DNA of 38,708 nt from a virus, in the IMG/VR virus record IMGVR_UViG_3300010392_000899, positions 1 to 38,708 of that record; one strand, written 5' to 3'. Below the pieces are notes generated by a model, which saw nothing but the letters and a program-made list of their open reading frames with translations, had not been told where the DNA came from and did not search any database. How positions within the stretch are numbered: position 1 is the stretch's first letter; each line of letters starts with the position of its first letter. The translations under genes were made by a program, and so were the position numbers. Positions 4,863 through 37,284 of this stretch are shown in pieces.

Positions 4863-6107
4863 TCACACCCCCTTGATGATCTCGGCATTGACCTTTTCCT
4901 CGCCGATCTCGGCGGCCAGGTTCATGGCCTTGCTGACGGTGTTGTTGACCACCAGCGGATACATCATCGACACGGTGGCGCCCAGGCTACGGCCGGGGAT
5001 CTGCAGGCGGGTGCGGATGGCGTCGAATGCTTCGGGATGGAATATGTCGCCCAGGCTTCTGCCAACCCGCTTCAGCTTGGCGCGGATGTAGTCCTCCAAG
5101 TTGCCGTTCAGCGGGTGCAGTTCGGCGATCTCGCAGCGGTTGATCACCTCGCGGGCATCCCAGTTGCGGCGCAGATCCAACGCCCCTTTCAGTTCCGGCT
5201 GGCCGACCAGGACGATGCCCAGCAAGCGTTTGAACCCGTCCTCCAGCTCCCAGAAACGCTTCAGGTATTTGAGCGTGGCGACGGTAAGGTCATGGGCCTC
5301 CTCGATGATCAGCACATGTGCGTTGCCGCTGCGTCCTGAGCCTGTCAGCAGACGTTCAATCTGCCGAGCCTTGGCCTCTAAAGTCCGCTTCGGGGTTTCG
5401 GATGAGACATCCTCGATGATGGCATCACAAATCGCACCAGCGGTCAGGCGACCCTTGTCGATGATGCGAGGCTGGATGACGGTGAGCGGCTCGGCATTGC
5501 GGGTGATACGGTCGATAAGATCCTTGCGCAGCGTGCTCTTACCGGCCCCGGATTCGCCGATCACAGCCAGGAAACCGGCGTTCTTGGCGGCGTAGTACAT
5601 GGCCTCGCGGATGTAGCGCTGATCCTCGCTGAGGTAGACATCGTCCGGGCCCTTCACGTCGTCGATGAAAGGGTCATTGAACAATTTAAAGTGGCGTTTT
5701 GCCTGTTGTGATAACATCTCGTTCTCCGGGAGTTGAATTTCATTGATAACCGGGGCGGTGGTTCCGGTGGACTTACGCGTGTTGCCTGGCCGGGCAGCGT
5801 AGCCACTGGGATCATCGTCAATTTCCAGCGCAGTGCTGATCTCGTGTTCCGGCACCTCGTGGGTGCGCAAAAAATCATCAATCTGCTTCTTTAAGAATGA
5901 CTTCGGTGTGCGCCGGGGCCATATATCCCGCCGAATGATTTGGGACACGGTCGCCTCACTGGGCGTCGTGCCGTCAACCAGCGTTAGGGCATTGCACAGG
6001 CTGACCTGCGACACGCCCTGTTGGGCCAGGATGCGCTTGAGGTTCAAGGGTGTTGGTTCTCTCATACGACGTACTTCCCATCCTTCTTGATAGATTTTTG
6101 GGTACAT
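4863..6107 (-). CDS. Transposition target activator ATPase (MuB/TnpB type)
   Basis: 414 residues. The N-terminal 60 residues carry an HTH (RILAQQGVSQVSLCNAL, EATVSQIIRR). An AAA+ domain follows, with Walker A GESGAGKST at about 184-192 and Walker B LIIEEAHD at about 266-273. This is the MuB/BcepMu-type partner that binds target DNA in an ATP-dependent way and delivers it to the transposase. The start at 6107 follows a perfect AAGGAGGT with spacing 6, placed in the 13-base gap after the transposase stop. A later ATG at 6065 is less well placed. No residue appears to be missing. Confidence 0.9.
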   Translation of the reverse strand: MYPKIYQEGWEVRRMREPTPLNLKRILAQQGVSQVSLCNALTLVDGTTPSEATVSQIIRRDIWPRRTPKSFLKKQIDDFLRTHEVPEHEISTALEIDDDPSGYAARPGNTRKSTGTTAPVINEIQLPENEMLSQQAKRHFKLFNDPFIDDVKGPDDVYLSEDQRYIREAMYYAAKNAGFLAVIGESGAGKSTLRKDLIDRITRNAEPLTVIQPRIIDKGRLTAGAICDAIIEDVSSETPKRTLEAKARQIERLLTGSGRSGNAHVLIIEEAHDLTVATLKYLKRFWELEDGFKRLLGIVLVGQPELKGALDLRRNWDAREVINRCEIAELHPLNGNLEDYIRAKLKRVGRSLGDIFHPEAFDAIRTRLQIPGRSLGATVSMMYPLVVNNTVSKAMNLAAEIGEEKVNAEIIKGV

Positions 6108-6120
6108 TGCGTTACCTCCT

Positions 6121-7908
6121 TCATTTCACGACGGCCAGTCCCGGTCGCTGCATCTCAATCGGTTGATTAAGGCGCGTCGCCAGGTCCGGCAGCTCCTCTT
6201 CGGGCACACCGTTGGGGAAGGTGGCACGAATCCATGCGTTCTCCTCCGCCGACAGGCTACGGCCCAACTTGCCAACCAGAGCCCGGCAGGCCTGGATATG
6301 TGAAAGGGGTTTGATTTCGACCTGCGCCCGGTTGGGCACCTCCAACTCAGTGCCGGGGCGGTCCATGTAGCTGGGCAGGTAGACCTTGCCCAAGTGGGTA
6401 TGGGCATCCAAGCCGCCGAAGGGTTTCGCCTTCTTCTCCTTGGACTTTTCGATCTCTTCCTGTGTCATATCCGGGTAGGCGGCGCGGTCAGCCGCCTTGC
6501 CGGCCTTCTCGATGGGGGTGTCCGGCATCTTGTCGAACGCCTCTCCCCATACCGGTGCATCCACTCGGAACCCGGCCTCATTGAACTGAACCGGCTCGAT
6601 GATGTGCTCCGCAGTCTCGCCGCGATAATCGGTTATGCCGACAATCACCTGGCAGGCGTCACCCATCACCAGCGGCGACACCATCACCTCCTGGCGGGGA
6701 TACACCCCATCGACATGGCGCAGGTCATACGTGAGTGATTGCTTGGCCACTGGGTGAACAAAGGTGATGGTGAGATTCGGCCGCACCTTGCGGGACTGCG
6801 GCTCTGCGGTCAGCAGGAAACGGCACACCTCCAGATCGGGCAGCAGCCGCAATTGATCTCTGCGGATGCGCTGCCAGATCTCGAACCGGGCAAAACCCCG
6901 CGCCATGCCCGGGCGCTTAAGCCTGGCGTCATATTCAGGAATGCAGTCGGCGTTGTAGGCCAACACCCACTTCTCGGCGGCAGTGTTCAGCTCATCGATC
7001 GACTGCACCGGCTCGTACTGCAGACGGGATTCAAATAGCTTCTCAACCCGATTGTTAGCCTCCTCCACGCCGCCCTTGGCGCGGGGGTTTCCCGCCTTGT
7101 GCTCGTAGGTGGCCACCTGCAGCGCACGCAGCGCATTCTTGATGGCGCTAGCCGTGTTGGCACTACCTTTGTCCCATACCAGCAGCAGCGGCACGCCGTG
7201 AAACAGGCGATCACCCAGTTTTTGCCAGCAGTAGAGGAGGAAATCGTAGAGATTGGCCTGTGTCTCGCCCTTGCTCTGGTAGTAGCGAACGATGACGGTA
7301 TTCGAGTAGTGATCCACCAGCACATAGCGCCAGCACTTCAGCTCGCCCACCCGCTCCAGGAATTCTGGTTTGTTCTTGTAGGCCTCGTCATCGCGGATCA
7401 TGTGCTGCTTGCCGTCCGGGGTGTAGAACAGTAGGCAGAGCGACGGGTCCACCATGTGCACATGGTTCGGGTGCAGGCTGCGCAGGTTCACATGAGGAGA
7501 CGCCTGGCGCTGACTGGCCAGGTCCAGTTTCCTCTGGCGAAGCAGCTGGTTGATGCGGCTGTTACTCACATCGAACCGGTGGCCGTTGGCCGCCAACAAT
7601 GCCCTGGCATTAGGCGTCTCCATCGTCGCCTTGCCGTTCTTGCGCACACCCAGGCGAAGAGTGGCGCCCAGTGCGGTCAATGACGCGGTATCCTGGCTCG
7701 TGGTGCCGGCATCAGCCCGGCGCTTGCGACCGGACTGCCAACCGACCTTCGACAACTCCCGATGCAGTCGCTGCAGGGTCCAGCCGTAGTGATCACAGAA
7801 CGCTTGCTTGATCTCGGTCTTGGTGCCCCATGCGGCGGCATCCAGGCGGCATGCAAGATCCCGCAGCGCATCCTGCACCGCCAGCTGAGCTGTTTGTTGT
7901 ACGGCCAT
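6121..7908 (-). CDS. DDE transposase (MuA-like, BcepMu type)
   Basis: 595 residues. An N-terminal DNA-binding part (about 1-135) leads to an integrase-core RNase H fold and a C-terminal beta-barrel-like part. Candidate catalytic residues are D154 (HMVDPSL), D246 (LLVWDKGSAN) and E282 or E283 (NPRAKGGVEEANN), with DDE-type spacing. A conserved VLVDHYS strand lies between the first two. It carries out strand transfer of the phage ends into target DNA, both at integration and during lytic replication, and needs the ATPase encoded next. Likely binding sites are the GATAA repeats at the phage ends. Usual length for the family, intact. Confidence 0.93.
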   Translation of the reverse strand: MAVQQTAQLAVQDALRDLACRLDAAAWGTKTEIKQAFCDHYGWTLQRLHRELSKVGWQSGRKRRADAGTTSQDTASLTALGATLRLGVRKNGKATMETPNARALLAANGHRFDVSNSRINQLLRQRKLDLASQRQASPHVNLRSLHPNHVHMVDPSLCLLFYTPDGKQHMIRDDEAYKNKPEFLERVGELKCWRYVLVDHYSNTVIVRYYQSKGETQANLYDFLLYCWQKLGDRLFHGVPLLLVWDKGSANTASAIKNALRALQVATYEHKAGNPRAKGGVEEANNRVEKLFESRLQYEPVQSIDELNTAAEKWVLAYNADCIPEYDARLKRPGMARGFARFEIWQRIRRDQLRLLPDLEVCRFLLTAEPQSRKVRPNLTITFVHPVAKQSLTYDLRHVDGVYPRQEVMVSPLVMGDACQVIVGITDYRGETAEHIIEPVQFNEAGFRVDAPVWGEAFDKMPDTPIEKAGKAADRAAYPDMTQEEIEKSKEKKAKPFGGLDAHTHLGKVYLPSYMDRPGTELEVPNRAQVEIKPLSHIQACRALVGKLGRSLSAEENAWIRATFPNGVPEEELPDLATRLNQPIEMQRPGLAVVK

Positions 7909-7976
7909 TCTTATTATCCCCTAATAACTGCTGAGCCCTTTTTATTATTGGGTCCGCTTCTTGTTGTTTGAGGTTG

Positions 7977-8900
7977 TTAATCCACCACCCCGGGTGCGTT
8001 CAACTCACGCTCATCGGCGCGCATCTTGTAGCCGATAAAAACCTCTTCAGAGGTAGCCATCAGATCGCCCACATGCGCCCACATTTGGGTAATCACGTGG
8101 TGATAAGTCACCGCCATTGCCTCGATACCGGGCTCCGCCTCTTCTTCGGTCATATCGCCCAGGTCACCGTTGAGAATCTGATCGCGCAGCACGGCCAGCT
8201 TGTCGAATGCTTCCAACGCCTGGAAGGCGGCGGTCTGGGTCTGGATTTGGGTTTCGGAAACCAGCTCTGGCCAGCTGGGCAACTTCCGACCGCCGTGCAG
8301 CTGCTTGTCCAGTTCATTGATCTTGGCGTCTTTCTGCGTGAGGAGCTTTTCGTGGACCTCGTTGTCCTGTTCCCGCTTGTCTTTTTCCTTACGCAGGTTC
8401 TCGCGCAACTCCCGCGTCGACATCCGGTCGATTTCATCCAGCGTCAGCCCGGCGATGGTGCCGCCCTCGGCCAATTCCTCCAGCTCATCGTCATCCTCCA
8501 CCATCAATTCCAGGAGCTTTGACTTGCCCAGGTTGGCCAGCGCCGCTTTCTTGGGACCGCTGTATTTGATTGCGGCCTGCATTGACCTCTGTGCCATGCG
8601 ATGGGACACACCGATCTCATGCAGCGTTGGCAGGAACTCACCGTGGGGCAGATGCTCCTTCAAGAGAATCAGCCGTTTCCCCGCTTCCAGCATGGATTCC
8701 GCCGAGTTCTGAAAGTAAAACCTGACTTCGTTGATTAACCGGAATTGATCGAACGGCAGGCCATCGCCGTATTGCGCATCGATCACCGTGAGGCGCTGGA
8801 TCAGCTCATCACTGGCCGCCGTCACTTCGTTGATCGCCTCGACATCCACGGCGTCCATCGGGTCGGCGGGCGGCGTTGCGGGTTTTCTTCCTCTTGCCAT
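7977..8900 (-). CDS. DUF3102-type early protein
   Basis: 307 residues. Residues about 60-120 (MLEAGKRLILLKEHLPHGEF, then HEIGVSHRMAQRSMQAAIKY) match the DUF3102 pattern, an HTH-bearing domain common in transposable phages next to the transposase. A long charged coiled coil follows (about 170-220, RELRENLRKEKDKREQDNE), then a helical end. It probably binds DNA, possibly with a role like a partition or regulatory protein; no function is established. The ATG follows GAGGAG. A 68-base AT-rich gap with no gene separates it from the transposase. Confidence 0.75.
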   Translation of the reverse strand: MARGRKPATPPADPMDAVDVEAINEVTAASDELIQRLTVIDAQYGDGLPFDQFRLINEVRFYFQNSAESMLEAGKRLILLKEHLPHGEFLPTLHEIGVSHRMAQRSMQAAIKYSGPKKAALANLGKSKLLELMVEDDDELEELAEGGTIAGLTLDEIDRMSTRELRENLRKEKDKREQDNEVHEKLLTQKDAKINELDKQLHGGRKLPSWPELVSETQIQTQTAAFQALEAFDKLAVLRDQILNGDLGDMTEEEAEPGIEAMAVTYHHVITQMWAHVGDLMATSEEVFIGYKMRADERELNAPGVVD

Positions 8901-15788: not shown

Positions 15789-17451
15789 CATCACCGAGGA
15801 ACCACTCGAAATTTCCCAGGGCGAGCGCAAGGATCTGCTCGACTTGGTGGAGGAGAAACAGCAGTCGCGTTTGGGCCGGCTGATACCAGCCGAAAATGTG
15901 CCGAAGATCCTGCTGTCTTACCAGGCGCGCTGGCATGCCGACGACTCGGTGGTGCGGTTGGCGGAAAAGAGCCGGCGTATCGGCTGGAGTTGGGGAGCTC
16001 TGGCCGCTGAGGGGGCACTGGAAGCCGCGCTTCCCCAGGGACACCCCAAGGGGATGGATCAGTTCTACATGGGCTACAACATGGCGATGGCTGCCGAGAA
16101 TATCGGTGACGTGGTGTTCTTCGCCAATGCTTACGGCTTCGCAGTCAGTGAGATTGGCGTAAAGCGACACCGGGAGCATGTCATTCAGACCGATGCCAAG
16201 GGCCAGGTGATCCGTAACGAAAAGCGTGACATCACCACTTACAAGGTGCAGTTTGCCTCCGGCCATGTCTACGAGGCGCTCTCATCCAACCCCCACAACT
16301 GGCGCGGTCGCCAGGGCCATGCTCGCATTGACGAGGCCGCATTCCATGACAACCTCCAGGAGGTGGTGAAGGCCGCTCTGGCGTTTCGTCTGTGGGGTGG
16401 GCGTATCTCCATCGTCAGTACCCACAACGGTGATGACAACCAATTCAACCTCTGGGTGCGGGAGATCAAGGCCGGCAAGTTGGGATGGAGTCTGCATCAT
16501 GTGGACTTTGACGAGGCGCTGCGTGACGGATTTTACCGGCGCATCTGCCTGGTTACCGGCCAGGAGTGGAGTCAAAAGGCCGAGGCGCGATTCCGAGAGG
16601 AGGCCTTTGCCGACTATCCCGATGAAGCTGACGCCAATGAAGAGCTTTTGTGCATTCCAAAGCGTGGTAGCGGTGTATATTTCAGCCGGATTCTTATCGA
16701 GCAATGCCAGGAGGAAGGTATTCCCGTTGTTCGCTGGGTCCAGCCGGAGGAGTGGGTCATAGATCCCTCACGCATACAAGTAACCGAGCGCTGGTTAAAA
16801 GACACTATCAAGCCGCTGATAAATGACCTGCCCACTGATCAGCGAACGGTTTATGGCCAGGACTTTGGTCGTGATGGTGACCTTTCAGTGATCTGGGTGC
16901 TGCAAAATGATGCACCCCTCCATTGGCGTACAGCACTGCTTATTGAACTGAGGAAGATCCCATTCGATGTACAAGCACTTATTCGTGATTACGTTCTTAG
17001 TGAGCTGCCTCTACTTCACGCTGCCAAATTCGACGCCAGAGGAAACGGACAGTCACATGCTGAAGGTGCAATGCAGCGGTTTGGTCCTAATCGCATCGAG
17101 TGCGTCATGCTCACTGCACAGTGGTACGCAGTGGCTTTCCCGAAATACAAGTCGGCCTATGAAGGCCGCAATCTCACCGTGCCGAAGAGCGAAGACATTA
17201 TTGCAGACCACCGACGCGTGGTACTGCATAAGGGCAGGCCCCACATGGACGATGGGAGAGACAAGGGCAGTGACGGCATGCCGAGGCATGGTGATTCCGC
17301 CGTCGCTGGCCTGCTCGCCTGGATGGCGGCGCTGGACGAAGGCGAACCCGCCTACGGAGAAACCATCGACAGCGAGGACGTGAATCGCCTCTATGCACCC
17401 GAGAGCGCCCGGGGGCGGAAATCGATAGCCATGTTCAGGAGCAAATCATGA
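15778..17451 (+). CDS. terL: Terminase large subunit (Mu gp28-like)
   Basis: 557 residues. EKSRRIGWSW (about 63-72) is the variant Walker A of this terminase group, HARIDEAAFHD (about 183-193) is Walker B, and the nuclease domain starts with YGQDFGRDGD (D at about 363). It pumps DNA into proheads and cuts it at headful. In Mu-like phages packaging starts near one phage end and takes some host DNA at the other. Start ATG at 15778; a GTG one codon earlier is possible. Confidence 0.92.
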   Translation: MTTDITEEPLEISQGERKDLLDLVEEKQQSRLGRLIPAENVPKILLSYQARWHADDSVVRLAEKSRRIGWSWGALAAEGALEAALPQGHPKGMDQFYMGYNMAMAAENIGDVVFFANAYGFAVSEIGVKRHREHVIQTDAKGQVIRNEKRDITTYKVQFASGHVYEALSSNPHNWRGRQGHARIDEAAFHDNLQEVVKAALAFRLWGGRISIVSTHNGDDNQFNLWVREIKAGKLGWSLHHVDFDEALRDGFYRRICLVTGQEWSQKAEARFREEAFADYPDEADANEELLCIPKRGSGVYFSRILIEQCQEEGIPVVRWVQPEEWVIDPSRIQVTERWLKDTIKPLINDLPTDQRTVYGQDFGRDGDLSVIWVLQNDAPLHWRTALLIELRKIPFDVQALIRDYVLSELPLLHAAKFDARGNGQSHAEGAMQRFGPNRIECVMLTAQWYAVAFPKYKSAYEGRNLTVPKSEDIIADHRRVVLHKGRPHMDDGRDKGSDGMPRHGDSAVAGLLAWMAALDEGEPAYGETIDSEDVNRLYAPESARGRKSIAMFRSKS

Positions 17452-17885
17452 TCCCAGCCACCCTCACGCCACCCGCCCACTACAGTGCCGATGTCGCCTA
17501 TCGTGCGTTATCTCCATTGCGCCCGTTTATTAACTCTGCACTCCCGTTGCTGACCACCGGACTCACCGCGAGAACCGCCAGAGAGTTGTTCGCCCAGTTG
17601 GAGCGAATCTCCGCAAATCTGCAACAGGCGTATGAGTCTGGTGTGCTTGATGGAGAAGCTACCTGGAAAGCAAACGTCGGTGCTGCACTGATGGATGTGG
17701 GCCAGATTGCTGCTGTCGCTGGCCCTATCCAACTCAAATATGCGGAACAGACAGGTGCTGTCATCGCCGCTGGCGCACAGAGCGGCACGGCTATCAGCCT
17801 GGATGAAGCGAATGCAACCATAATTTTCGATCAGGCTGATATTGACTCCATCGTCACTGTCATTAACAACGTGATTGAACCGTAG
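17448..17885 (+). CDS. Hypothetical protein after terminase
   Basis: 145 residues, Ala-rich and helical (ELFAQLERISANLQQAYESG), with a C-terminal beta-like region. The ATG overlaps the terminase stop. No family recognised. First gene of the accessory block 17448-20682; somewhat lower GC than the terminase. Confidence 0.6.
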   Translation: MIPATLTPPAHYSADVAYRALSPLRPFINSALPLLTTGLTARTARELFAQLERISANLQQAYESGVLDGEATWKANVGAALMDVGQIAAVAGPIQLKYAEQTGAVIAAGAQSGTAISLDEANATIIFDQADIDSIVTVINNVIEP

Positions 17886-17887
17886 TC

Positions 17888-18160
17888 GTGTGTGAATTCC
17901 TCGTCCGATGTTCCGACAACCGCATCATCCGGTGTGTTGAGGATGGTTTTGCATGGGGCGCGATGGAAACTTATTCCGCATTTGTAAACTCACATCGTCA
18001 GTTCGGCGACTGGCATAACAAGCTCTATCTGATCCGTTGTCCTGATATGTCGGCTCCAGAGGGCGAAGGTCTGATAGGTAGCGTTTACGCTGGGCCAGAG
18101 ATTGAGCATGAGTGCACGATGGCAAAGTGGGAAATCATGTCGAGTGTGACCGATGACTGA
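17888..18160 (+). CDS. Hypothetical protein, 90 residues
   Basis: From a GTG just after the previous stop. Trp/Phe/Cys-containing small protein (CEFLVRCSDNRIIRCVEDGF, DWHNKLYLIRCPDM). No family recognised. Overlaps the next gene by 8 bases. Confidence 0.55.
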   Translation: MCEFLVRCSDNRIIRCVEDGFAWGAMETYSAFVNSHRQFGDWHNKLYLIRCPDMSAPEGEGLIGSVYAGPEIEHECTMAKWEIMSSVTDD

Positions 18161-19886
18161 GAGTGTGAAAACACTACGCGCCTCTGGTGGTGATTACACA
18201 AGCATTCAGACCTGGTGGAATACTGAGTGCAAAGAGTTCGACTGCGTTGCAAATGCAACAAGCCCCGTACTGGAGTGCTATAACGACTGGCCAACGGGTT
18301 TAGCCGAAAGTTTTGTCAACTTGGCTGGTGGCGCTGTGTTCGCTCGGAACAGCACCTACCGCCCAATTCTCCGTGCTGCAGCAGGCAACGGCCACAACAT
18401 GACGAAAGGTGCCGGATTTTTTGTAACCGGCAGTGTCGCATATGGCTATATATTATCCCCTGAATCGTGTGACACCGATGAGATAGAAGTCAGAAACACC
18501 AAATCTGGCACCGCTGCTAATTCAACAGCACTCGGCGGCAGTGCCAAACATCGACGGCTTATCTCAGTAGCACGAACAGGGTCTGGCAGTTGCGCATTTT
18601 ACAACTTGCAATCGAATTTGGATGCACGGTATCTACTCGCGTACGGCGCAGCTATCGGATACAACACAAACACGTACCAGACCATTACACTAGACTGCTG
18701 CGGGGCAGCCAATTGTGTGAGTGGGTTTAGCGTCGGTAGTAACTCCACAATAACAGCCAGAAACAACTGGGCACTGGGCTGCACAACAGGGTTTGGCGGA
18801 GGAGGTGCCTGGAGCGGAGCATCAACAAATAACGCATCGGATGACGCAACTGTCACATCGCTTGGGATTGGTACAATCACAGCGCTATCCAACGCGGATT
18901 TCGCAGACGCTGCCAACGATGATTATCATCTTTCCCCAACATCACAACTGATCGGCGCAGGCGCGAATCTCTACACGGACGGTAGCGATGTCGATATAGA
19001 CGGCGAGGCGTGGCCGAATGCAGCGTGGGATATCGGGTTTGATTATTATGTGGCGGCTGGCAGTACCACCCCCATCACCACCGATCTGAACCTGCAATGG
19101 AACATCCTTCAGCAGCTCACCACCGACAACGACATGCGGTGGCAAATCCTCAACACCGTGGACACCGATCTGCAAACGGCCTGGCACCTGCTCAACCAGG
19201 TCACAAAAGACGAATTCACCAGCTGGGATGTGCTGCAGCAGCTATCTCGCGACGTGAACCTGAGCTGGGACGTGATTGCCGCCCTGTTCCACATCACCGG
19301 CGATATGAATCTGCGCTGGAGCATTATTAACGCCGTGCAGAAAGATCAGCAAACCGCCTGGGACTTACTGAACAGCGTCAACCGCAGCACGGCGATGAGC
19401 TGGAACCTGCTTAACGCCATGACCCGGGACATGCAGGCCGGCTGGCACATCCTGGAGTCTGTGGAGCAGGATGTGGATCTGCGCTGGAACGTGGCCAGCA
19501 CGCTGACGCCGATCACCACCGACCTGGGACTGCGCTGGAACCTGCTGCAGGCCATCAGCCGCTCATTCGACACCCAGTGGGATCTGCTGGAGGCCGTCAC
19601 CCAGGACCAGGATATCCGCTGGGGCGTGGCCAATGCGGTGGTTACCGAGCTGAATACCCGCTGGGATATCCGCCACCAGGTGGTAACCGATTTCAACCTG
19701 CGCTGGAACAGCCTCGAGGTGAGGCAGAACAGCCTGACCCTGCAGTGGTCGGTTGACGGTCAAACCATCACACCCATTTCATTCATACCGGTCCAGGCCG
19801 AGCGCCGTAATATCGCGCTGGCGAGCGAAAACCGGATGATTTCAATCCCCGCCGAAAACCGTACCTTAACCGTCAGGAGGGCATAA
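18153..19886 (+). CDS. Beta-helix virion protein with 14-residue Trp repeats
   Basis: 577 residues. The first 300 residues are Asn/Ser/Gly/Thr-rich with short strands (SGGDYTSIQTWWNTE at the start), as in right-handed beta-helix phage proteins. Residues about 309-535 are about sixteen repeats of 14 residues, consensus T-x-D-x-x-x-x-W-x-L-L-x-x-V, for example TTDLNLQWNILQQL and TRDMQAGWHILESV. Two repeats carry three or four extra residues. The end (about 536-577) is a short basic beta part. It is probably a fibre or spike of the head. A 14-residue period equals two heptads, so the repeat region may form a trimeric rod. Confidence 0.7.
   Translation: MTESVKTLRASGGDYTSIQTWWNTECKEFDCVANATSPVLECYNDWPTGLAESFVNLAGGAVFARNSTYRPILRAAAGNGHNMTKGAGFFVTGSVAYGYILSPESCDTDEIEVRNTKSGTAANSTALGGSAKHRRLISVARTGSGSCAFYNLQSNLDARYLLAYGAAIGYNTNTYQTITLDCCGAANCVSGFSVGSNSTITARNNWALGCTTGFGGGGAWSGASTNNASDDATVTSLGIGTITALSNADFADAANDDYHLSPTSQLIGAGANLYTDGSDVDIDGEAWPNAAWDIGFDYYVAAGSTTPITTDLNLQWNILQQLTTDNDMRWQILNTVDTDLQTAWHLLNQVTKDEFTSWDVLQQLSRDVNLSWDVIAALFHITGDMNLRWSIINAVQKDQQTAWDLLNSVNRSTAMSWNLLNAMTRDMQAGWHILESVEQDVDLRWNVASTLTPITTDLGLRWNLLQAISRSFDTQWDLLEAVTQDQDIRWGVANAVVTELNTRWDIRHQVVTDFNLRWNSLEVRQNSLTLQWSVDGQTITPISFIPVQAERRNIALASENRMISIPAENRTLTVRRA
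19077..19755 (+). repeat. 42-bp coding repeat array (14-residue Trp repeat)
   Basis: About sixteen tandem degenerate copies of a 42-base unit, each with an in-register TGG for Trp. The protein repeat is better conserved than the DNA, which points to old duplication under selection rather than recent slippage. Confidence 0.8.
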
Positions 19887-19888
19887 CC

Positions 19889-20398
19889 GTGCCAATGGAA
19901 GCTACCGACATGAAATCCTACCTCTCCGGAGGTGCTGCAAATGCCGACCCCAACGCGGCCCTGGGCGGCATAATTTCCAGCGTGGAACTCAGCGGCACGC
20001 CGCTGCACAACCTGTTCGACCAAGTGGACGGTGCCGAAGCCAGCGCCGGCGATACCGAGTACCGCTGTATCTACGTGAAGAACACTCATGCCACCTTGAC
20101 GGCCCAAAACCTGAAGGTATGGGTAAATTCGGAATCCGCCAGCGCCGACACCGATGAAGAGATCGGCCTGGGCACCAGCGCGATCTCGGGCACCGAGCAG
20201 ACCGTGGCCGACGAAGACACCGCGCCGATCGGCGTGACCTTTGCCCAGGCTAACGGTTCAGGTGCCGCCCTGGTGATCGGTAACCTCGCGCCGGGTGAAT
20301 GGAAAGCGATCTGGATCAAGCGGGTGGTATCGGTAGCGGCGGCAGCCGCCAACGACGACGGCCCCACCATTCGCCTGGGCTGGGATACCGCCGCATGA
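19889..20398 (+). CDS. Probable capsid decoration or head-fibre-associated protein
   Basis: 169 residues from a GTG after AGGAGG. Begins with MKSYLSGGAANADPNAALGG at residue 8, then beta-rich (YRCIYVKNTHATLTAQNLKV) and ending with IRLGWDTAA. The strand pattern suggests a jelly-roll or Ig-like fold, often found on virion surfaces. It directly follows the repeat protein. No firm family. Confidence 0.55.
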   Translation: MPMEATDMKSYLSGGAANADPNAALGGIISSVELSGTPLHNLFDQVDGAEASAGDTEYRCIYVKNTHATLTAQNLKVWVNSESASADTDEEIGLGTSAISGTEQTVADEDTAPIGVTFAQANGSGAALVIGNLAPGEWKAIWIKRVVSVAAAAANDDGPTIRLGWDTAA

Positions 20399-20682
20399 TC
20401 CCCGTGTCAGACGTGCCGCCCAAGCACCCGGCCAGTGCCAAGTGGTACTGGCTGAAATGGCACGACCAGGAGTTGCAGGGTGCGGCCATACTCACCAGCG
20501 ACTGGAGTACCGGTAGCACGCTGACGATCGCGGATCAGGCTATCAACGGGCAGATGACGGGCGTGAAGGTCTCGGGCGGTGTTGAGGGTCAGTATGTTGA
20601 GTTGGAGGTGGAGATCACCACCTCCGCCGGCGAGACGCTGCATGAGCAGTTGGTCATCAAGATCGATCGGCACGGTCATTGA
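20395..20682 (+). CDS. Ig-like-fold virion-associated protein
   Basis: 95 residues. The ATG overlaps the previous stop (ATGA). VPPKHPASAKWYWLKWHDQE, then DWSTGSTLTIADQAI and VEGQYVELEVEITTSAGETL, give the strand pattern of an Ig-like domain common in phage structural modules. Probably acts with the two genes upstream. Confidence 0.55.
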   Translation: MIPVSDVPPKHPASAKWYWLKWHDQELQGAAILTSDWSTGSTLTIADQAINGQMTGVKVSGGVEGQYVELEVEITTSAGETLHEQLVIKIDRHGH

Positions 20683-33824: not shown

Positions 33825-34246
33825 GGCTGTCTGGTTGGGAGAAGCGCCTGATGGAGCTGATCAGGGACTCTGAAGATCGCCCATTTGAGTGGGGTGTATT
33901 CGATTGCGCCCTGTTCGCTGCTGACGCAGTTAACGCGATAACCGGAGTAGACCTGGCAGCTGATTTCAGAGGCCACTACAGCACGGCCAAAGGTTCCGTT
34001 AAGGCGCTTAAGAAATATGGCGCGGGGGATCTGGAGAGCACCTGGACAGAGCTGCTCGGACCGCCTATTGACATTCGCCAGGCGGGGCGTGGTGATGTGG
34101 TTTTAGTTGAGTCCATTTATGGACCTGCCGTGGCCGTCTGTATGGGGTCGGTGGCTGTTTCGACAGCAGTGGAAAAAGGGCTGATTTCGATTGACCGCGC
34201 CCTGTGGTTGAAGGCCTGGGCCTGTGACATGAGGGAGGTTTCCTAA
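33818..34246 (+). CDS. NlpC/P60-like tail protein (DUF6950 type)
   Basis: 142 residues from one of two tandem GTG codons. FEWGVFDCALFAADAVNAIT places Cys30 at the start of a helix as in NlpC/P60 peptidases, but no clear catalytic His follows in the usual GHVGI-type strand (here GPAVAVCMGS). It may have lost activity or belong to the DUF6950 branch. It would act at the tail tip on murein. Confidence 0.75.
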   Translation: MVRLSGWEKRLMELIRDSEDRPFEWGVFDCALFAADAVNAITGVDLAADFRGHYSTAKGSVKALKKYGAGDLESTWTELLGPPIDIRQAGRGDVVLVESIYGPAVAVCMGSVAVSTAVEKGLISIDRALWLKAWACDMREVS

Positions 34247-37200
34247 TGCCACAAGTCGCGGTTGGTGCTCTTATGGGCGGCCTCCAGATTACCGGCTCGC
34301 TGGCCGCTGGATTTAGTATCGGTTTTTCAGTAAGCGGTGCCATTATGGGTGGCGCAATGGCGCTGGTGAGTGGTCTACTTGCAGAGACGCCATCCAGGGC
34401 CGCTGCTTTCACTAGTGAGGCAACCGACCGAAACGTTATTGTTCGCTCCCCCATCTCACCTCATCGGGCCATCTACGGACGTGCTCGCGTTTCGGGCACT
34501 TTGGTATTCGCTGAAGTCACTGAGAGCGGCGATGATAAGTATCTGCACCTGGTCATTGTGCTGGCGGGACGGGAAATCTCGAATATCGGCGAAGTGTACT
34601 TTAACGATGAAGCCGTGAGTAGTGCTCGGTTCAGCGGTTACGTTCGTATCAACCGACACTTGGGCAGTCCCGACCAGCTTGCCGACGCCGACCTGGTGGC
34701 CGAATCCACTCTCTGGACTGTCAATCATCGTCTCAGGGGTCGCCCCTATATCTATGTTCGGCTTAAGAAATCCTACGATGTATTCCCCACTGGTATTCCA
34801 AACATCAAGGTCGACACAGAAGGGCACAAAGTCTACGACCCCAGAACGTCTCTGACGGCCTACAGTGAGAACCCAGCGCTTTGCATTAGAGACTATCTCA
34901 CATGGCAGTATGGGGTGGGTTCTCCTGAATCAGAGATCAACGACACCAAATTAATCGCTGACGCGAATATCTGCGACGAAGATGTCGTGATCGATGCCCA
35001 GAGCAATGTGCAGCCCCGCTACACCTGTAACGGTTCGTTCACGTTAGACCGTGCGCCACTCGATATATTGCATGAACTGAAGACCAGCATGGCGGGAGCC
35101 GTAGTTTGGTCGATGGGCCAGTGGGAGACACACGCCGGTGCGGCGGTGCTCGCCTCCGGTGATATCACTGAGGATGATATTAGGGGTACTGTCTCTTATC
35201 GCCCGAGACCGGGGCGCGATCAGCTGTTCAACGCGGTGCGAGGCACCTACGTCAATCCGGCAGATTACTGGCAGCCGACAGACTTCCCCCCTATCATCAA
35301 CAGCCTCTATGAGTCTCAGGACGGTGAACGCATCTATAAGGATGTCACACTGTCATTCACGATCGACGGCATAGAGGCTCAACGCAACGCCAAGATCGAG
35401 CTGGAGAACCACCGCCAGAGTATCACCGTCAACATGCCGTTGATGCTGAGTGCCGGCCTCAAATTTAAGGTGTGGCAAGTGGTGCGGGTTACGCTGAGCC
35501 CACTGGGGTGGGTGAACAAGCTCTTTCGGATTATCGATTGGAAATTGGTACCGGCTGGTAGAGGGCTTGGCGTTGATGTTGTGCTCCAGGAATACTCCGA
35601 TGCCAACTACGACTGGGTCTATGGTGAAGCCACGACCATTGATACCGCACCCAACACCATTCTGCCGACTCCACACCTGGTAGAGGCTCCGACTAATCTG
35701 ACCCTGGCCACCGGTGATGCAGTGGCACTCATCCAGGGTGATGGAACGGTAGTGCCTCGTATCAAAGCGACGTGGACCAAATCAACTGATACGTTCCTCA
35801 TCGGCCACGAGATTCGGTGGAAGGCCACCACCGATAGCGTATGGCTAAGCCGTCTGTTAGGTGTTGATGCTGAAGAGGAGTATCTCAGCCCCATCCTGGA
35901 TGGTGCTGATTACGACGTAGAGCTGAGGGCCATTAATAAATATAGTGGTACCAGCCCCTGGGTGCCTGCCAACACCATCACCGGGGCCGGTAAAACCCTG
36001 GCCCCCACCGCCCCTTCAGCTGCCACAGTTACACCGAAGACGGCAGCACTATTTCTGGAATGGAGCAATGCCGATGATCTCTATACAGAAATATGGGTCT
36101 CGGCAACCAATGATCGCAATACGGCCACCCGTGCGGGTCGCATTCTGAGCAATACACTGTTACACCCAACACCAGCCGGTGAAACTCGTTACACCTGGTA
36201 TCGCTCTGTCGATACCAGCGAGAATTTCTCTACCTGGTACCCAACCAGTGCCACGGCGGGTATCAGCGGTACTGCGAAATATATCACCTCTGAAGACCTG
36301 ATCAGCTACCTGCGTCAGGCCTCGGCCACTTCATTCAGAAATGGCTTTGAAGACTATGAGTTTAGCGATTGGACCGATTACCTAACAAACACGGTGGTTC
36401 AAAATGTTGACTCACATAGCGGTACTTGGTCAGGTCTGTTCACACAGCATGATGTGGTTGGTACTACATGGTGTGGATCTGTATTGATATCAGATGAAAT
36501 AGCACAGTCATTTATTGGTCAGCGCGTTAGAGTTTCTGTTTATGCTAGGCAGCCTGCCACAAATCCATCTGCAACATTTAAGTTGATGGTACGGACTCCA
36601 GTAGGAAATAGCGGATGGAATGAATTTACACCAAATGTTTCATGGACGAACCACGGATTTGATTTTGACGTGCCAGAGTCTTGGGCTGGTAATACGATGC
36701 AGGTTGTTGTTCAAGCTGATCCGACTGGCTCTGGTAAGAGCGTCCTAATAGACGGCGTAAATGTTCAGCTAAACCCAAGTGTCTTTATTGAGGCCGGCAA
36801 CATCGATCAGTACATCGGTGTGGCTGCCATTAGCCAAGCATATTTGGGCCTAGCCGCTGTAGGTGAAGCAAATATTCAGGATCTCGCGGTCGATACACTG
36901 AAGCTGAAGGATCAGGCAGTAACGATACCAGTTTCAGCGCATACAGGTGCCTCTACGTCCACGACGGGTTCATCATGGCTCACCTTGCAGTCAGCAACGA
37001 TCGTATCTACAGGGGCACCAATCTATCTTTGGTTCTCATTCGTGAGCCTACAGTACAGCTCCAATTGGCCTCAAATGCGCATTCTAAGAAACGGCGGCGA
37101 GATCTATCAGTCGTATCTGAGGGGCTACAACCTGAGCAGCCTGGATGAACGAGACATGATCTCTGGGTCACTCAAAGACCAACCTGGATCAGGAACATAC

Positions 37201-37284
37201 ACCTACACCGTCCAAATTCAGCGTGCCTTCGGAGGAGTAAAGGCCGCCAAGCGCAGCCTTATGTTGATAGAGACGAAGAAATGA
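34246..37284 (+). CDS. Tail tip / host-recognition protein (gpJ-like)
   Basis: 1012 residues. The N-terminus has a Gly/Ala-rich hydrophobic segment (ITGSLAAGFSIGFSVSGAIM), then the hub-type core (HRAIYGRARVSGTLVFAEV ... CIRDYLTWQYGVGSPE). About 480-590 is a fibronectin type III-like domain. About 700-850 is a jelly-roll, carbohydrate-binding-like domain (FRNGFEDYEFSDWTDY ... VLIDGVNVQLN) encoded by lower-GC DNA. A C-terminal beta domain follows (about 890-1012). It determines adsorption. Confidence 0.88.
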   Translation: MPQVAVGALMGGLQITGSLAAGFSIGFSVSGAIMGGAMALVSGLLAETPSRAAAFTSEATDRNVIVRSPISPHRAIYGRARVSGTLVFAEVTESGDDKYLHLVIVLAGREISNIGEVYFNDEAVSSARFSGYVRINRHLGSPDQLADADLVAESTLWTVNHRLRGRPYIYVRLKKSYDVFPTGIPNIKVDTEGHKVYDPRTSLTAYSENPALCIRDYLTWQYGVGSPESEINDTKLIADANICDEDVVIDAQSNVQPRYTCNGSFTLDRAPLDILHELKTSMAGAVVWSMGQWETHAGAAVLASGDITEDDIRGTVSYRPRPGRDQLFNAVRGTYVNPADYWQPTDFPPIINSLYESQDGERIYKDVTLSFTIDGIEAQRNAKIELENHRQSITVNMPLMLSAGLKFKVWQVVRVTLSPLGWVNKLFRIIDWKLVPAGRGLGVDVVLQEYSDANYDWVYGEATTIDTAPNTILPTPHLVEAPTNLTLATGDAVALIQGDGTVVPRIKATWTKSTDTFLIGHEIRWKATTDSVWLSRLLGVDAEEEYLSPILDGADYDVELRAINKYSGTSPWVPANTITGAGKTLAPTAPSAATVTPKTAALFLEWSNADDLYTEIWVSATNDRNTATRAGRILSNTLLHPTPAGETRYTWYRSVDTSENFSTWYPTSATAGISGTAKYITSEDLISYLRQASATSFRNGFEDYEFSDWTDYLTNTVVQNVDSHSGTWSGLFTQHDVVGTTWCGSVLISDEIAQSFIGQRVRVSVYARQPATNPSATFKLMVRTPVGNSGWNEFTPNVSWTNHGFDFDVPESWAGNTMQVVVQADPTGSGKSVLIDGVNVQLNPSVFIEAGNIDQYIGVAAISQAYLGLAAVGEANIQDLAVDTLKLKDQAVTIPVSAHTGASTSTTGSSWLTLQSATIVSTGAPIYLWFSFVSLQYSSNWPQMRILRNGGEIYQSYLRGYNLSSLDERDMISGSLKDQPGSGTYTYTVQIQRAFGGVKAAKRSLMLIETKK

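Follow-up and report, generated by a model that had tools for sequence, protein, structure and literature searches.

A 14-residue tryptophan (Trp) repeat, found in a protein encoded by the 38,708-nt stretch of viral DNA analysed here (IMG/VR record IMGVR_UViG_3300010392_000899; hereafter the window), was shown to be associated with a neighbouring gene, the partner, that belongs to phrog_13135 and encodes a predicted beta-sandwich protein. The partner accompanies the repeat in almost all cases; the link runs both ways, is seen on the strand of the repeat, and persists inside a single family of N-terminal heads. The tie of the repeat to the partner ORF and to a Gp77-like adaptor is the stronger functional clue, and it had gone unseen in the sequence-only reading of this DNA. 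We propose a rope-and-bead virion fibre in which strand repeats are coated by the partner, anchored by a Gp77-like protein or gp15, and carry the head as payload; we give this proposal about an even chance of being correct. The features concerned are, in window coordinates:

18153–19886, plus strand: repeat ('rope') protein, 577 aa, stop included in the span
18153–19052, plus strand: N-terminal head, aa 1–300, putatively beta-helix-like by sequence, with five relatives (L357–L361)
19077–19755, plus strand: sixteen 14-residue Trp repeats, seen in Trp spacing and hydrophobic pattern
19287–19295 (placement approximate), plus strand: three-residue insert between units 5 and 6 (W372 to W389 = 17)
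19506–19514 (placement approximate), plus strand: three-residue insert between units 10 and 11 (W445 to W462 = 17)
19761–19883, plus strand: C-terminal tail of short strand repeats (RNIALASENRMISIPAENRTLTV)
19889–20398, plus strand: partner (candidate 'bead'), 169 aa, GTG start, phrog_13135, beta-sandwich in the AlphaFold2 model
20395–20682, plus strand: Gp77-like protein, 95 aa, PF23148 (GP4 fibre-tail adaptor), E 7.4e-14

The Trp codons of the array were located at 19098–19748, within the span 19077–19755 given earlier, corresponding to residues 316, 330, 344, 358, 372, 389, 403 and 417 (units 1–8) and 431, 445, 462, 476, 490, 504, 518 and 532 (units 9–16). The earlier count of about sixteen repeats of 14 residues was confirmed, as 13 of the 15 Trp spacings within the 16-unit array were exactly 14 and the other two were 17; in 20,000 composition-preserving shuffles of the protein, at most five spacings of 14 were obtained. 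Hydropathy autocorrelation of the ORF showed peaks at 14, 28 and 42. Besides the Trp itself (16/16 units), I, L or V was found at position +2 in 15/16 and V, L, I or M at +6 in 14/16. The motifs T-x-D and W-x-L-L described previously were fair but loose, since D at −5 was present in 12/16 units, L at +3 in 10/16 and T at −7 in 7/16. Mean identity between the 16 units was 30% on amino acid level and 48% on DNA level, and no tandem DNA array was detected at the repeat by TRF. Because the units have diverged to this extent and the DNA contains no tandem repeat, we conclude that the array is old and kept by selection on the protein, and a recent tandem duplication as its origin was rejected. No Pfam or NCBIfam model covering the repeat was found, and a PHROG profile search with the repeat protein gave only a weak match to PHROG 6079 ('tail protein'), in agreement with the previous statement that the pattern belongs to no named repeat family. 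Searches for close relatives with the Trp repeat itself as query gave none, and a PDB sequence search matched neither the repeat nor the partner. Plasmid matches to the repeat were rejected (19% identity, chance-level E-values, unrelated neighbours).

Analysis of 751 units from 102 non-redundant loci, selected for W or Y at position 0 (Trp in 78%, Tyr in 22%), showed hydrophobic fractions of 0.65 at −4, 0.79 at −2, 1.0 at 0, 0.86 at +2 and 0.85 at +6, and of 0.13–0.25 at −5, −3, −1 and +1. For the units of the window, the hydrophobic moment from −5 to +2 was 0.76 at 180 degrees, compared to 0.03 at 100 degrees. This alternation of hydrophobic residues at i and i+2, together with a helical moment close to zero, points to a beta strand. 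Each unit is predicted to consist of roughly seven residues in an amphipathic beta strand plus a linker, and not of a pair of heptads, with which the period had earlier been equated. A coiled coil with two heptads per unit would fit the period (14 = 2 × 7), but hydrophobic positions spaced by 3–4 residues, as in a heptad coiled coil, are absent from the repeat, where they fall at 0, +2, +6, +10 and +12; contradicted by this pattern and by the low helical moment, this explanation is hardly credible.

Partner homologues were present in about 60 loci that had been fetched solely for their Trp ladder, always on the same strand as the repeat and mostly 0–60 bp from it; the terminase, portal, MuF and capsid proteins of the window were matched in just 0–3 of these loci. 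In the reverse direction, 60 new non-redundant loci were fetched by the partner alone, and a same-strand ladder (at least four W/Y at period 14) was found within 3.5 kb in 35 of them, compared to a ladder on the opposite strand in 2/60 and further away in 5/60. Several of the partner loci without a strict ladder contained degenerate Tyr/Phe forms. For 18 ladder loci the fetched stretch contained no partner; in nine of these, one was present elsewhere in the record. The partner was not found in four repeat records of good length (L213, 38 kb; L141, 114 kb; L216, 67 kb; L164, 29 kb), for which divergence or fragmentation is a possible explanation. Within the head family, L359 contained both the repeat, in its Tyr form, and the partner (E 1.8e-65) in its contig, and L357, L358, L360 and L361 contained neither. 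Nor was the partner found in nine records whose 14-residue Trp ladder is of another kind (SANWNSVY type). Each single negative among these controls is weakened by fragmentary records, and the overall pattern is consistent. In KVP40 and its relatives, where the repeat is part of gp15, the partner is the next gene (KVP40.0353 in KVP40).

The GTG start of the partner lies 2 bases past the stop codon of the repeat ORF. The partner matched the phrog_13135 profile over its full length (E 1.2e-31), and homologues were found as 66 ORFs in the fetched loci and in 54 GenBank phage records. AlphaFold2, with 46 homologues, gave a confident beta-sandwich model (pLDDT 88, pTM 0.85). A Foldseek search against PDB returned the AP2 mu2 domain and type 1 pilus subunits (FimA/FimG) as weak neighbours, with TM scores of about 0.3–0.4 and none with E below 1e-3, and the single good match in BFVD was an uncharacterised siphophage protein. 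AP2 mu2 and the chaperone-usher pilus subunits are both beta-sandwiches that take up a peptide strand; at these TM scores the likeness of the partner to them is only a hint. In six siphophage-like loci (L040, L011, L032, L079, L076 and L362) the partner domain formed the N-terminus of proteins of about 800–1,200 aa, and a looser repeat was found at the N-terminus of a tail protein of about 600 aa.

The start of the third gene, which encodes the Gp77-like protein, overlaps the stop codon of the partner (ATGA), and its product also showed a weak match to 8jou_D. Gp77-like proteins or domains were found in 53/150 partner loci (not deduplicated), many of them 0–20 bp downstream. Repeat, tail and Gp77-like domain were fused in one protein in L432, L435 and L441, the domain call being strong for L435 and made by eye for the other two. 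In Alteromonas podophage PT15-A5 the order is repeat, partner, Gp77-like protein and portal, as in the window. The downstream position of the Gp77-like gene, the natural fusions and the PT15-A5 order support that the products belong to one physical assembly. In the window, the module lies in the interval from terminase to portal; the gene for the main tail-tip fibre is at a different place (34246–37284). The phage resembles Mu-like transposable siphophages, judging from its rve transposase-like, AAA, MuF, tape measure, distal tail and gpJ-like hub proteins. A reverse-strand AAA ATPase, an rve transposase-like protein and a DUF3102 protein are encoded at 4863–8900. Two small ORFs upstream of the repeat gene (17448–18160; 145 and 90 aa) had no family matches and occupy the same position in L357.

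The same repeat, in Trp or Tyr form, was found in many phages of all tail types, and W, Y and F were mixed within single arrays. TGG-ladder scans detected it in L050, L074, L133, L156, L161, L210, L215, L220, L297 and others; the first scan also yielded many microsatellite and SANWNSVY-type ladders, the latter being retained as controls. By tblastn, the repeat was found in the gp15 C-terminal extension of KVP40-like vibriophages, including the C-terminus of KVP40 gp15, and a weaker match was found in a tail protein of Shewanella phage 1/44. Arrays in the 102 non-redundant loci contained a median of 13 units, with a maximum of 49 in this count. RxIxV tails resembling the C-terminal tail in the window terminate many repeat proteins. 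The N-termini differed: among the heads of 50 repeat proteins, seven were LamG-like, three were SASA esterases, one was gp15 (PF16724, KVP40 type), and others were present. The head in the window had no Pfam or PHROG match, and the repeat protein as a whole had no Pfam match, the PF16724 domain included; the sequence of the head reads as beta-helix-like, as had been proposed.

Some further arrays were observed beside these. In L357 (6904–8148), the Trp array of a head relative is replaced by another long repeat (FSAQLAGVSGALSG / LEGITASLTG); the two are separated by a stop codon, located where the head ends, that breaks the frame, and the partner is absent. The other 14-residue Trp ladder (S-A-N-W-N-S-V-Y-x-x-V) occurred in phage proteins in L021, L030, L066 and L105 and also in L053, L058, L068 and L096, where no partner was found. 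In Vibrio phage 1.081.O (L364, 7560–7753), the public record lists the 42-bp period of the gp15 repeat as 'CRISPR spacers', which is an annotation artefact of the Trp repeat.

In the proposed fibre, the repeat region would be the rope, consisting of sixteen short amphipathic beta strands (D-L-x-L-x-W-x-V) on linkers, and each strand, or strand pair, would be held by one copy of the Ig-like partner. This would result in a beaded, flexible fibre whose length would depend on the number of repeats. Attachment to the virion, at its neck or tail, would be through the C-terminal tail together with the Gp77-like protein, with gp15 as the anchor instead in the KVP40 types, and the N-terminal beta-helix head would be the distal payload in contact with host polysaccharide. 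We infer the binding of the partner to the repeat, its stoichiometry, the location on the virion (from gene position) and the payload role of the head. In a broader form, which we hold tentatively and at somewhat less than an even chance, this would be a widespread appendage of podo-, sipho- and myophages, in which one strand site corresponds to about one Ig-like bead, repeat number determines length, and both the anchors (Gp77-like or gp15) and the differing, carbohydrate-active payloads are swapped. Jointly with that broader form, and equally tentatively, an appendage system of this kind may be undescribed so far.

Alternatively, the repeat might adopt a fold of its own, as a beta-solenoid or as a trimeric beta rod in which the Trp are stacked, with the partner acting as a cap, a connector or a separate subunit of the same appendage. 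The strict 14-residue period, the beta-type alternation and the fixed W agree with this, 14-residue coils are present in YadA-type heads, and trimers are common among phage fibres. However, the three-residue inserts and the mixing of W, Y and F within an array would be more natural in a loose arrangement than in a stacked core, and a glycine-turn signature is absent. Regular beta-solenoids are usually recognised by AlphaFold2, but in one monomeric model of the read-through fusion in L133 (eight repeats, tail and partner, with only five alignment rows covering the repeat) no confident fold was predicted for the repeat: pLDDT was 50–66, it was modelled as a mixture of helix and hairpin that was mostly helix, with strands assigned to just the final two units (pTM 0.56), and the partner part reached about 95 pLDDT. 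A fold of the repeat alone is thus without support from this model, which, given its lack of contact output and the five-row coverage of the repeat, is silent either way on binding between repeat and partner. Taken as a whole, we regard a self-folding repeat as rather unlikely.

It is still less probable that the partner acts on the repeat protein as a chaperone of assembly or as a stabiliser and stays outside the finished virion. A small conserved gene beside a repetitive structural gene, frequently at translational-coupling distance, would suit such a role, but the occurrence of the partner domain at the N-terminus of large siphophage proteins is unlike a chaperone, and the Ig-fold protein of a comparable module in phage LSH1 was detected in virions (PMC13243795). 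Very improbable, in our judgement, is that the repeats serve as exposed sugar binders or flexible linkers with their Trp on glycans, and that the linkage to the partner reflects modular inheritance only. Heads are frequently carbohydrate-active (LamG, SASA), which counts in its favour; the hydrophobic residues, with W, I/V and V in constant positions along an alternating face, instead indicate burial, and the partner tracks the repeat over unrelated heads and tail types and is gone where the same head occurs without the repeat.

The window's module was further compared with known systems. In fibre I of podophage GP4, Gp80 dimers are reportedly strung along a 'rope'. The window shares a Gp77-family protein with this module (PF23140 Gp80, PF23148 Gp77; PDB 8JOU). 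The repetitive protein that the window encodes next to a beta-sandwich protein and Gp77 might correspond to a rope threading the beads, but its period differs. However, Gp80 (PF23140) was not found among 30 scanned window proteins, and the partner was rejected as a Gp80 homologue (hhalign probability 0.2% against BcepMigl Gp80). Since the partner is not homologous to Gp80, the module was not classed as GP4 fibre I; by analogy, we propose that it may work like it. In BcepMigl the order is Gp80, directly 5′ of a repetitive strand protein with a window-like tail, then a lyase-like protein and Gp77, and RxIxV-like tails end the repetitive proteins upstream of Gp77 in both BcepMigl and Itty13; the BcepMigl repetitive protein differs from that of the window in having a period near 20 instead of 14 and no Trp ladder. 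In KVP40-like phages, gp15, the T4-type tail sheath stabiliser, has a C-terminal extension made up of this same W/Y repeat, and the partner is the next gene, as in the window, but the repeat is anchored by the N-terminal gp15 domain and not by a C-terminal tail or Gp77.

Two published modules are similar by description. In Alishewanella phage LSH1 (PX020959), gp34–gp36 make up a virion module whose three proteins were detected by mass spectrometry: a lyase-like beta-helix protein whose C-terminus is poorly predicted, a fibril protein resembling GP4 8JOU, and an Ig-fold protein. Its working model comprises adaptor, fibril and payload; the authors suspected a repetitive motif in the unpredictable C-terminus and identified none (PMC13243795). 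This module is likened to that of the window by its published description and not by sequence, and Slicko01, a relative of LSH1, showed no partner match and no convincing ladder. Anabaena myophage A-1(L) gp82–gp81–gp80 forms a bead-chain neck fibre of many bead subunits, the distal protein of which bears a carbohydrate-binding module, but its beads link head-to-tail via their own N-terminal hairpins with no repeat rope, unlike the proposed fibre (PMC10966104).

The findings join three sets of 'hypothetical' genes, encoding repeat proteins, phrog_13135 proteins and small Gp77-like proteins, into one testable virion module across all tail types. This module could account for the C-terminal extension that KVP40 gp15 carries, and perhaps also for the gp34–gp36 module of LSH1, so far unexplained. 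If true, it would be a general modular way to mount lectin or depolymerase domains on phages, on a beaded tether whose length would be encoded by the repeat count.
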